Part shown: in pieces, positions 13,113 through 17,745 of the stretch | Position numbering within the stretch: the first letter of the stretch is position 1 | Layout: each line of letters starts with the position of its first letter | Assembly: GCA_012960315.1 (NCBI GenBank) | Contig: DUBN01000058.1 | Coordinates: 11,696-75,695, forward strand | Length of the DNA: 64,000 nucleotides | Direction: 5' to 3' | DNA from: Acidimicrobiia bacterium | GTDB lineage: Bacteria > Actinomycetota > Acidimicrobiia > Acidimicrobiales > Poriferisodalaceae | Made by a program: the position numbers and the translations under genes | Notes under the pieces: generated by a model | Database searches by the model: none | Told to the model about the DNA's origin: nothing | What the model saw: the letters and a program-made list of their open reading frames with translations, nothing else

Positions 13113-15014
13113 TCACTGCAATTCGATTCGCGCGATTAGATCGGCCGGTTCAAAGTTCAGAACCTGCCCTAGGAATGAAAGTTCGGCCTCAAGAGCGTTG
13201 GCTATGGTTTCGGCTTTGCGAAATCCATGGCTCTCGCCGTCGAAAAGTACGTAAGCATGTGGAATGCCTGCCCCAGCCAGAGCATTAACAAGTTGATCTG
13301 CCTGAGATGGTGGCACCACCGGATCTTCGGAACCTTGTAACACAATCATGGGGGTTGAAAGTCGCTCAGTGTGATGGATGGGTGAGCGTTCCCTGTAAAT
13401 GTGTTCCTCATCTGGCCACGCTCCGACTAAAGAGTCAAGGTATCGAGCTTCAAATTTGTGGGTCTCTTGTGCTAGTGACGACAGATCAGCGACTCCGTAG
13501 CGAGATATGCCTGCAGCAAAAATGTCGCTGTTACTTAGTGCGCATAACGTCGTGAAACCACCCGCAGAACCGCCTTTTATAGCGAGACGAGAAGGATCGA
13601 CAGCTCCGCATTCGGCGAGGTATGTGGCGGCTCCTATGCAGTCTTCGGTATCTGCTATGCCCCACTGCCCTTTGAGCTTGTTGCGGTATGTCGTTCCAAA
13701 GCCGGTACTGCCTCGATAATTCACGTCGACTACAGCGATTCCGCGGCTAGTCCAATACTGAATACCGGCATCGAACGATGAGCGTGCTCCTGCTGTTGGG
13801 CCTCCGTGGCTCAGCACAAGCAGAGGTGGCACACCAGACGATGAGAAACAACTGGAATTAGTGGGTGGGAAGTGGAACGCATGGGTTGGTTGTCCATGTG
13901 GATCACTGACGACAATCGGTTGGGGAACTGAAATATCTTCCGACGCGAGGGGAACTGCGTCTGAAACACTGAGTTGCTCTGCTGAGCCTGCGCTATCTAA
14001 GGCGTAGACAGCGGCGCTCTTTTCCCAACTGGCAGCGATGGTGACGGCACGGCCATCAGCCAGGATGTCAAGGCCGTTGAATTCGGTGAACCCAGTGTCA
14101 AGTTCACACAAGTCTCCGTTGACAATTTGGCCTATGTGACCCACACCTCGGTTGGCCCAAGTACACCAAATGTTTTCAGCGCTCCAGGCGTATGTTCTTT
14201 GACCAAAAACCCAAGAGGGAAGGCCGAACTCGAGATCAACGTCGACGATGGGTCGCGAGCGTCGAGTGTTGACGTCAACTTCGTGTATGTTCCACCACCC
14301 CGTAGCGTCACTAATGACGTGAAGTAGCCCTTCTGGTGAGAAGCGGGGTTGCTGTAACGCTGGGCCGTCGAGGACCACCTGATGATCGACCCACCCTTCC
14401 TTGCTGCGACGAGCAACGTGTAATCGCACGTGATCCCAAGGCATAGAAGGGTGATCCCAGGACAGATACGCCAACGTGCGACCATCAGGTGAGGTCGTTG
14501 GCGAAGAGTAGAAATCTGCTCCTGAGGCGATCTTGGTGACTGCGCCATCGACGCTGACTGTCGCCAAGAAATTTTGAGGTTGTGGGTCGTGGAGGTGGTG
14601 TTGCTCAACGACCCAAATAGTGTCGTCGCTGTCTACCACGGTGGTTCCGTCGGAGAATCGTTGCGATTTGGGAGAACTCGGTTCGGCAGTTATTGGGCGG
14701 AGGTCATCATGGAGCAGCCATATGCGTTGATCTTCGAACCGCGAAACCAAGATTCCGTGATCGGTTGGTAGCCACCCACCACCGCCGTACTCGTGAACAA
14801 GGGTACGTATGTTCAGATCGGTTGGTCCCAACGTTTGAGACTCGGTCCCGTTGAACTTCACGAGGGCAGTCCGACCCAACTCTGCGGGCCGACTCTCTAA
14901 CCAGAGAACGTCGTTGTCGAAAACTCGGGGCTCTGATCGACGGATCGCACCGCTCGCCAACTCGTGAGAACTGAGTTGTGACGGCCAACTGCCGTAGGGG
15001 CGATCCTTTTTCAA
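13113..15014 (-). CDS. S9 prolyl-oligopeptidase-family serine peptidase
   Basis: About 633 residues from a TTG start (KKDRPYGSWPSQLSS follows); AGG lies 8 bases upstream. A GTG/ATG start at 15080 would add 22 basic, non-conserved residues, so the start is uncertain. The N-terminal two thirds form a beta-propeller, for example FYSSPTTSPDGRTLAYLSWD and QPRFSPEGLLHVISD. The C-terminal alpha/beta-hydrolase has LSHGGPTAG, the nucleophile elbow GGSAGGFTT, the acid QGSEDPVVPPSQ and the base GESHGFRK, a full Ser-Asp-His triad. No signal peptide is visible, so it is probably a cytoplasmic dipeptidyl or acylaminoacyl peptidase. It ends 2 bp from the convergent CapA-like gene. Confidence 0.9.
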   Translation of the reverse strand: MKKDRPYGSWPSQLSSHELASGAIRRSEPRVFDNDVLWLESRPAELGRTALVKFNGTESQTLGPTDLNIRTLVHEYGGGGWLPTDHGILVSRFEDQRIWLLHDDLRPITAEPSSPKSQRFSDGTTVVDSDDTIWVVEQHHLHDPQPQNFLATVSVDGAVTKIASGADFYSSPTTSPDGRTLAYLSWDHPSMPWDHVRLHVARRSKEGWVDHQVVLDGPALQQPRFSPEGLLHVISDATGWWNIHEVDVNTRRSRPIVDVDLEFGLPSWVFGQRTYAWSAENIWCTWANRGVGHIGQIVNGDLCELDTGFTEFNGLDILADGRAVTIAASWEKSAAVYALDSAGSAEQLSVSDAVPLASEDISVPQPIVVSDPHGQPTHAFHFPPTNSSCFSSSGVPPLLVLSHGGPTAGARSSFDAGIQYWTSRGIAVVDVNYRGSTGFGTTYRNKLKGQWGIADTEDCIGAATYLAECGAVDPSRLAIKGGSAGGFTTLCALSNSDIFAAGISRYGVADLSSLAQETHKFEARYLDSLVGAWPDEEHIYRERSPIHHTERLSTPMIVLQGSEDPVVPPSQADQLVNALAGAGIPHAYVLFDGESHGFRKAETIANALEAELSFLGQVLNFEPADLIARIELQ

Positions 15015-15078
15015 AACGGGCCTCAATTTTCTTTTTAGACGAGTGGTCGAACCGTAGCCGGGTATTAGCCTGAGCATC

Positions 15079-15246
15079 ATGTGGGACGTCTTTGTCCCCG
15101 AACCGGCTCAAATCAGTTGGTCCCACGTTCAACTTGGCGACGCATTTTTTGTGGTCTGCGCGGTTTGCGTCCCGGATCGCCCACCGATCCGCGGGCGTTC
15201 CGTGAGCTGGGGGAGTACCACCGACTCCCCCAGCTCACACCTTTTT
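15079..15246 (+). ncRNA. candidate small RNA ending in an intrinsic terminator
   Basis: The 267-bp spacer between the S9 peptidase and xseB holds no convincing gene but strong plus-strand RNA structure. GTGGGAC at 15081-15087 pairs with GTCCCAC at 15120-15126 (a competing GGGAC/GTCCC hairpin uses 15083-15098), CGGATCG at 15173-15179 pairs with CGATCCG at 15185-15191, and a 15-bp terminator closes the unit at 15202-15246. Upstream, TAGCCTGAG at 15066-15074 is identical to the box before the SRP RNA in this window and gives a start near 15079. Both neighbouring genes lie on the minus strand, so a plus-strand terminator has no coding gene to serve. I do not recognise the RNA family; it lacks tmRNA, SRP and tRNA signatures. 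Confidence 0.4.
15202..15246 (+). terminator. rho-independent terminator (plus strand)
   Basis: A 15-bp perfect stem (15202-15216 with 15224-15238, GTGAGCTGGGGGAGT and its complement), loop ACCACCG, followed by TTTTT at 15242-15246. The minus-strand side of the stem has no T run, so it points rightward and not to the end of xseB. Confidence 0.7.
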
Positions 15247-15281: not shown

Positions 15282-15485
15282 TCATCGCTCTTCAAGGTCA
15301 GCGACTATTCGTTCAACGTCAACTCTTGTTGATTCCAACCGGCTGCGGCACCACTCGATCAACTCTGAAGCACGTTGCAAGTCAACGGTTAACGAGTCGA
15401 TGTTGACTTCATCGCTGTCTAGCTTCTGGAGGATCAATTCAAGTTCTTCCATAGCTGTTTGGAATGTCAGGTTTTCCTTAGTCAT
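15282..15485 (-). CDS. xseB: exodeoxyribonuclease VII small subunit
   Basis: A 67-residue acidic, helical protein of the normal XseB size. LTFQTAMEELELILQKLDSD matches the family's opening (F-x-x-A-x-x-x-L-E-x-I-V-x-x-L) and a second helix (LQRASELIEWCRSRLESTR) completes the coiled hairpin. It associates with XseA to form exonuclease VII, which degrades single-stranded DNA to oligonucleotides. Its start overlaps the end of xseA by 8 bp, so the two are translationally coupled. Confidence 0.95.
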   Translation of the reverse strand: MTKENLTFQTAMEELELILQKLDSDEVNIDSLTVDLQRASELIEWCRSRLESTRVDVERIVADLEER

Positions 15486-16949: not shown

Positions 16950-17039
16950 GGAAGGTTGCCAGAGCGGACGAATGGGGCGGCCTCGAAAGCCGTTGTGGCC
17001 TCCGGGTCACCGTGGGTTCGAATCCCACACCTTCCGCCA
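16950..17039 (+). tRNA. tRNA-Ser (anticodon CGA)
   Basis: A 90-nt type II tRNA with CCA encoded. The acceptor arms are GGAAGGT at 16950-16956 and ACCTTCC before the discriminator G and CCA. The anticodon loop CTCGAAA gives CGA, decoding UCG. A long variable arm (around GGCCTCCGGGTCACC) and the T-loop GGTTCGAATCC are clear. It lies alone between xseA (divergent) and tadA (convergent). Its first 24 bases and its T-arm closely match the second tRNA-Ser at 17520-17610. Confidence 0.97.
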
Positions 17040-17073: not shown

Positions 17074-17520
17074 TCACCGTCGTTCAGCAAAAAAACTTGT
17101 GAGAATTTCCCCGCATTCGTCAGCTAAGACTCCGCTCGTGATTTGAGCTTCGTGGTTCAACCTCGGATCTGCGAGCAAGTTATAGAGCGTCTCAGTAGCG
17201 CCAGCTTTTGGGTCGTGTGCCCCGAAAATGACGTGCTTGATGCGTGCGTTGACTGCGGCGCCAGCGCACATGGGGCACGGTTCTAATGTCGTAACCAAGG
17301 TTGCCGCATCTAGGCGCCATGTACCTAAATGGGTTGCCGCGTCTCGTAGAGCCAAAATTTCTGCGTGGGCAGTCGGGTCGCCGGTGAGTTGACGTTCGTT
17401 GTGGCGTGAGGACACCACTTCGTTTTCAACGATTACCAGCGCGCCTACAGGAACATCCTCATGTTCCATCGCTGCCCTTGCTTCCTCAAGGGCTAGGTGC
17501 ATGGCTTGGTCGTCGTTCAT
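17074..17520 (-). CDS. tadA: tRNA adenosine(34) deaminase
   Basis: A 148-residue zinc deaminase from the ATG at 17520; the frame runs on upstream only through the tRNA-Ser gene. It makes inosine at the wobble position of tRNA-Arg(ACG). Zinc and catalytic residues: His52-Ala-Glu54 in DPTAHAEILALRD and Cys82/Cys85 in TLEPCPMCAGA. The A of its start codon is also the last A of the CCA end of the upstream tRNA-Ser(GGA), so tRNA maturation would remove the start codon from the downstream RNA; the next in-frame Met (residue 7, MHLALEEA) would survive processing. Order SRP RNA, tRNA-Ser, tadA on one strand beside dnaX recalls the Bacillus arrangement of tRNA-Ser, tadA, scRNA and dnaX. Confidence 0.95.
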   Translation of the reverse strand: MNDDQAMHLALEEARAAMEHEDVPVGALVIVENEVVSSRHNERQLTGDPTAHAEILALRDAATHLGTWRLDAATLVTTLEPCPMCAGAAVNARIKHVIFGAHDPKAGATETLYNLLADPRLNHEAQITSGVLADECGEILTSFFAERR

Positions 17521-17610
17521 GGCGGAGAGTGTGGGATTCGAACCCACGGAGGCCGGTTAGACCTCACACGCTTTCCAAGCGAGCCCATTCGTCCGCTCTG
17601 GCAACTCTCC
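17520..17610 (-). tRNA. tRNA-Ser (anticodon GGA)
   Basis: A 91-nt type II tRNA including CCA. Acceptor arm GGAGAGT pairs with ACTCTCC, discriminator G, then CCA. The anticodon loop TTGGAAA gives GGA, reading UCC and UCU. The long variable arm and T-loop (GTGGGTTCGAATCCCAC) are present. Its 5' end is 3 nt from the predicted 3' end of the SRP RNA, and its terminal A is the A of the tadA ATG. One transcript probably carries all three. Confidence 0.97.
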
Positions 17611-17613
17611 TCG

Positions 17614-17745
17614 ATCATCGCCCCACGAGGCGGCCAGGCAATCTGCGGCACACAGCGGAATCCGCTGAGAGCTGCTGCCTCCCGGCCCTGACTCGATTCA
17701 CGGGCCACTGTTGCACAGGACCCGGCCGCCACGTAGAACGATGAT
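17614..17745 (-). ncRNA. ffs: signal recognition particle RNA (4.5S type)
   Basis: The minus strand at 17692-17671 reads GTCAGGGCCGGGAGGCAGCA, the SRP domain IV apical hairpin: conserved CAGG on one side, AGCAG on the other, and a GNRA tetraloop (GGGA rather than the common GGAA). GTGAATCGA precedes it, as in other actinobacterial 4.5S RNAs. The ends close a long helix: ATCATCG at the 5' end (17745-17739) pairs with CGATGAT at 17620-17614, followed by a GGCGGCC/GGCCGCC stretch. Length is about 132 nt. It would bind Ffh for cotranslational targeting. End positions are from pairing and may be off by a few bases. Confidence 0.88.

Follow-up and report, generated by a model that had tools for sequence, protein, structure and literature searches.

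The closest described counterpart of the RNA reported here is 6C/B11 (RF01066) of mycobacteria and other actinobacteria, a free-standing gene whose RNA has two adjacent hairpins with C-rich loops within about 75-90 nt, the second of them being a terminator with a T run (PMC10470900). The 6C RNAs inspected here share this layout. In B11 of M. abscessus, repression comes about through pairing of either C-rich loop with a G-rich 5' UTR, as demonstrated with compensatory mutations (PMC10470900). In the current analysis we have confirmed a plus-strand RNA unit in the spacer between an S9 peptidase gene and xseB, likewise a free-standing gene with two such hairpins side by side within a similar length. 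The loops of 6C are runs of about six or more C, whereas those of the spacer RNA are CCACC throughout the 33 aligned sequences, an A interrupting the C run. Unlike 6C, the spacer RNA has in addition a variable 5' domain.

The spacer locus and its promoter

The window is the whole stretch of DNA that was analysed, 64,000 nucleotides in length. The genes flanking the spacer are both encoded on the minus strand, and the features of the locus are as follows.

13113 to 15014, minus strand: S9 peptidase gene (PF00326), probable start TTG at 15014; conserved neighbour by synteny
15051 to 15056, minus strand: probable -10 element (TACGGT) of the divergent S9 peptidase promoter; relatives have TAGCGT, TACGTT or TACGGT aligned on the minus strand
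15066 to 15071, plus strand: -10 element TAGCCT of the RNA promoter; aligned TAnnnT boxes in relatives (TAGCAT, TAAGAT, TAGGAT, TATGAT)
15078 to 15246, plus strand: predicted small RNA of about 169 nt, from about 7 nt past the -10 to the T run; fold z -5.2
15083 to 15098, plus strand: 5' hairpin GGGAC-GTCTTT-GTCCC, kept throughout the genus; six members have 29 of 29 cells paired
15168 to 15197, plus strand: core hairpin 1 of 11 bp, with one bulged base and the loop GCCCACC (15179-15185); paired cells 98.3%, two-sided changes in 6 pairs
15202 to 15238, plus strand: core hairpin 2, the terminator stem, with CCACC at 15218-15222 in its loop; paired cells 98.7%, two-sided changes in 7 pairs
15242 to 15246, plus strand: T run (T5) of the intrinsic terminator, read from the sequence
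15282 to 15485, minus strand: xseB, exonuclease VII small subunit (PF02609), convergent with the RNA; conserved neighbour by synteny

The 5' end of the RNA was placed from the position of the -10 element. The frame of the S9 peptidase is open up to 15080; the start position kept in relatives is the TTG at 15014, where the gene probably starts, and the RNA would therefore lie outside the S9 reading frame. The 168-nt unit has a folding energy of -78.9 kcal/mol as against -56.3 kcal/mol for dinucleotide shuffles (z -5.2), and none of 200 shuffles is as low. The initial annotation had described a plus-strand terminator preceded by two further perfect 7-bp stems, and all three are present in the sequence. 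The terminator is comprised of a 15-bp perfect stem (15202-15238), the bases A-C-C and T5, with the T run on the plus strand only, and the two inverted repeats are CGGATCG/CGATCCG at 15173-15191 and GTGGGAC (15081-15087) with GTCCCAC (15120-15126). A conserved protein frame through the spacer would have spoken for a coding gene; none persists, since indels of a single base within the core throw it out of phase.

The RNA has a promoter of its own, as a free-standing small RNA gene does, with a weak -35 in the window's genus. In this genus and the nearer relatives only the -10 element is clear; the best -35 in the window's genus is a degenerate TGGTCG with a 16-nt spacer. The most distant genera have TTGACA-N17/18-TAnnnT located 36-103 nt upstream of the core, and genus g4 has TTGACG-N17-TATGCT. 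Genus g7 (L038-L042, L064-L067) has TTGACA-N17-TAnnTT or similar, and its terminator hairpin is without the T run, with the stem and the CCACC loop retained.

The nine bases TAGCCTGAG upstream of the RNA had been taken for a box identical to that of the SRP RNA. Exactly two copies do occur in the 64 kb, at 15066-15074 (plus) and 17759-17751 (minus), but relatives have TAGCATGAC, TAAGATGCC or TAGGATGCC at this place, keeping TAnnnT and not the 9-mer, so that the identity stands and the special box does not. Allowing one mismatch, 6 matches to TAGCCTGAG are found in the 64 kb as against 8.2 expected; the 9-mer alone is therefore weak evidence. From these comparisons it is most readily explained as a standard -10 hexamer followed by three bases. 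The bacterial small SRP RNA (RF00169), confirmed by Rfam at 17727-17629 on the minus strand, has the same -10 TAGCCT and following GAG as the spacer RNA; the two RNAs are unrelated and resemble each other in the promoter only.

The SRP RNA probably extends past the Rfam match, over 17743-17606 (minus): a closing stem is possible between CATCATCG (near 17741) and CGATGATCG (near 17606), and the RNA would then begin about 8 nt downstream of the TAGCCTGAG box. Beside it two tRNA-Ser genes with anticodons CGA and GGA, at 16950-17039 (plus) and 17520-17610 (minus), flank a deaminase-like gene (named by eye), making up a small cluster of stable-RNA genes.

Core hairpins, loops and the 5' part

The 3' part of the RNA, about 87 nt, is made up of two adjacent hairpins. 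In an alignment of 33 sequences fitted to the covariance model, 98.5% of cells are paired and two-sided changes occur in 13 of 25 pairs (71 cells, which come from ten genera of one family and are not independent events). Such compensatory changes in relatives are what the initial annotation had proposed to look for. None of 500 shuffles reaches as high a covariation score, and the slid controls all collapse. An alignment of 17 sequences made without the structure (A1) gives two-sided changes in 10 pairs and 33 cells, and again no shuffle of 500 scores as high; RNAalifold, unaided, recovers both hairpins. Read on the plus strand, there are 57 G-U cells as against 4 A-C cells; an A-C here is a G-U on the other strand, and the constrained RNA is therefore the plus strand. 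The earlier proposal of a small RNA gene on the plus strand with its own promoter and terminator gains strong support from covariation, from G-U pairing specific to one strand, from synteny and from the conserved promoter. Sequence comparison establishes in this way the RNA gene, its strand, its structure and the conservation of its loops.

CCACC is found in the loops of both hairpins in all 33 sequences, with varying neighbouring pairs. The second loop of the window is one C shorter (UACCACCGA) and CCACC is retained. The conservation of the loops on drifting stems suggests that they are the working part of the molecule, contacting other molecules, probably mRNAs.

The 5' part varies in sequence and length beyond the 5' hairpin, and conservation of this domain is seen within the genus. 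In the hairpin, GGGAC (15083-15087) is able to pair with GTCCC (15094-15098), and this local pairing is kept in six of six genus members; the six show one compensatory change, in a sample of few sequences for which 82 of 500 shuffles are as good. It had been proposed that GTGGGAC can switch between this partner and the more distant GTCCCAC. Both pairings are indeed possible in the sequence, but the long-range one is not maintained across the genus (paired cells 75.6%, two-sided changes none) and the local hairpin is conserved, so that the switch is not supported. The loops could also pair with a GTGGG of the 5' domain, but this pairing occurs in only about half of the genera, is absent in several of their species and could be due to chance. 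Many sequences also fold just upstream of the core, with a mean z of only -1.0, and an extra conserved hairpin is not claimed there.

Distribution and relation to known RNA families

Searching at the DNA level detects the 3' part in 18 of 39 genomes of the host family (E <= 0.001). A covariance model of the 3' part (R1; window 15158-15246), built from the 17-sequence alignment, matches 36 of the 39 with E <= 1.5e-6 and one strong locus in each. Two of the three remaining genomes (65% and 77% complete) are without a match, and the third (G004, 77% complete) has a weak match only. All loci with full flanks are situated between xseB and the S9 peptidase gene, except L061 and L062, in which the S9 gene is found and xseB is not recognised; this synteny holds even at about 42% xseB identity. 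R1 gives no convincing match among genomes of the order (298) and of the class (395), which belong mostly to other families. The sole match outside the family (G316, E 0.0015) lacks the pair of CCACC loops in the stretch that was inspected, and we take it for a chance match. None of 29 xseA loci of other families has the RNA, and at none of them did we find the S9 gene next to xseB. A scan of named genomes with a narrow pattern returned one locus (L068), on the same contig as G005, and no plasmid match for the RNA was obtained.

The initial annotation had also suggested an Rfam search. With Rfam 15, judged by gathering score and E-value for the window and six relatives, no family matches the spacer RNA above its gathering score, and our literature search found no description of it. 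The 6C model (gathering threshold 47 bits) has its best matches in the window's own genome at 22.2 and 20 bits, both at other loci, and gives no match in the spacer at E <= 10; conversely, R1 does not find the 6C loci. A terminator hairpin as in 6C is present at 15202-15246, genus g7 being without its T run. Membership in 6C is rejected on the absence of a model match at the locus, the failure of R1 at 6C loci and loops that are not poly-C. By comparison with 6C, we propose a new RNA family, outside 6C, that may work like it. Two Streptomyces RNAs, Scr4115 (RF02829) and Scr3202 (RF02833), bear a weak structural likeness to the terminator part (23-24 bits); these scores are far below the gathering scores of 58 and 52, the matches are absent in the relatives searched, and the likeness is read as chance.

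The spacer RNA adds a strongly covarying RNA gene to actinobacterial lineages for which our literature search found no small-RNA work. If it acts as proposed below, small RNAs with twin C-rich loops would exist in at least two distinct actinobacterial versions, 6C and the spacer RNA, and this would speak for repeated evolution, or a very early split, of chaperone-free mRNA silencing.

Proposed action, alternatives and candidate targets

Transcription on the plus strand would start at the promoter that diverges from the S9 peptidase gene and stop at the intrinsic terminator, and the stable stems of the RNA would hold the two CCACC loops open and unpaired. The loops would then pair in trans with GGUGG(G) stretches of mRNAs, mainly near ribosome-binding sites, and lower translation, like the twin C-rich loops in 6C/B11. 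A dedicated small RNA gene reducing translation by such loop pairing is the reading that we prefer, with moderate confidence; the base-pairing and the repression we infer from the analogy with 6C/B11.

Conserved loops suit a protein-binding RNA equally well. The main rival, somewhat unlikely in our estimate, is that the two CCACC hairpins are protein-binding sites of a sponge or scaffold like CsrB/RsmZ and not antisense loops. The occurrence of the same loop twice on stable stems of drifting sequence is consistent with this, as is the lack of enrichment of complementary sites near starts. Known sponges, however, carry many copies of their site, whereas there are only two here, one of them within the terminator; no candidate protein is at hand, and twin C-rich loops have a precedent in base-pairing (PMC10470900). 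A bolder proposal, which we regard as unlikely, is a post-transcriptional switch undescribed in actinobacteria, in which the RNA, specific to its family, would use its two CCACC hairpins to titrate one dedicated RNA-binding protein or a core RNA.

The RNA might instead act locally, regulating the adjacent S9 peptidase gene or xseBA as a divergent or antisense RNA. This would agree with the tight synteny in the family, with the S9 gene not being found beside xseB in families without the RNA, and with the overlap of the divergent RNA and S9 promoters. It is nevertheless quite improbable: no part of the predicted transcript reaches into either coding sequence, and the scheme leaves the conserved CCACC loops without a role. 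The structure lies 36-43 bp past the xseB stop and its stem would form in a minus-strand transcript too, so it might simply be the 3' end or terminator of the xseA-xseB transcript with no plus-strand RNA. This is made very improbable by the T run on the plus side only, the excess of G-U over A-C cells on that strand and a promoter that points into the RNA in many genera; moreover, a terminator needs neither an invariant loop nor a second covarying hairpin. Chance open frames cross the region, but a reading as a leader, an attenuator or a short coding gene is scarcely credible, as the next downstream gene is on the opposite strand and no frame survives the single-base indels.

For the preferred action by loop pairing with mRNAs, complementary sites were searched in 1.92 Mb of the window's genome. 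GGTGG is not enriched upstream of starts (0.86 times the coding background); GGTGGG stands at 1.56 times, within the range of permuted six-letter motifs (1.05-1.92 times). A genome-wide search combining seed and duplex energy yielded no class of targets. One candidate, the proteasome beta subunit gene, was rejected: its G-rich site falls inside the 3' end of the preceding reading frame and is GGCGG in most relatives. As GGUGG sites are not enriched and this candidate is not conserved, the targets, if any, are therefore few. Another candidate is a methylmalonate-semialdehyde-dehydrogenase-like gene at position 1053 of the window, named by eye from the sequence.

The frame preceding prcB in L229-L258 ends in ...YVQKGGE-stop, resembling the C-terminus of Pup, a protein tag, and the host family probably encodes a Pup-proteasome cluster.
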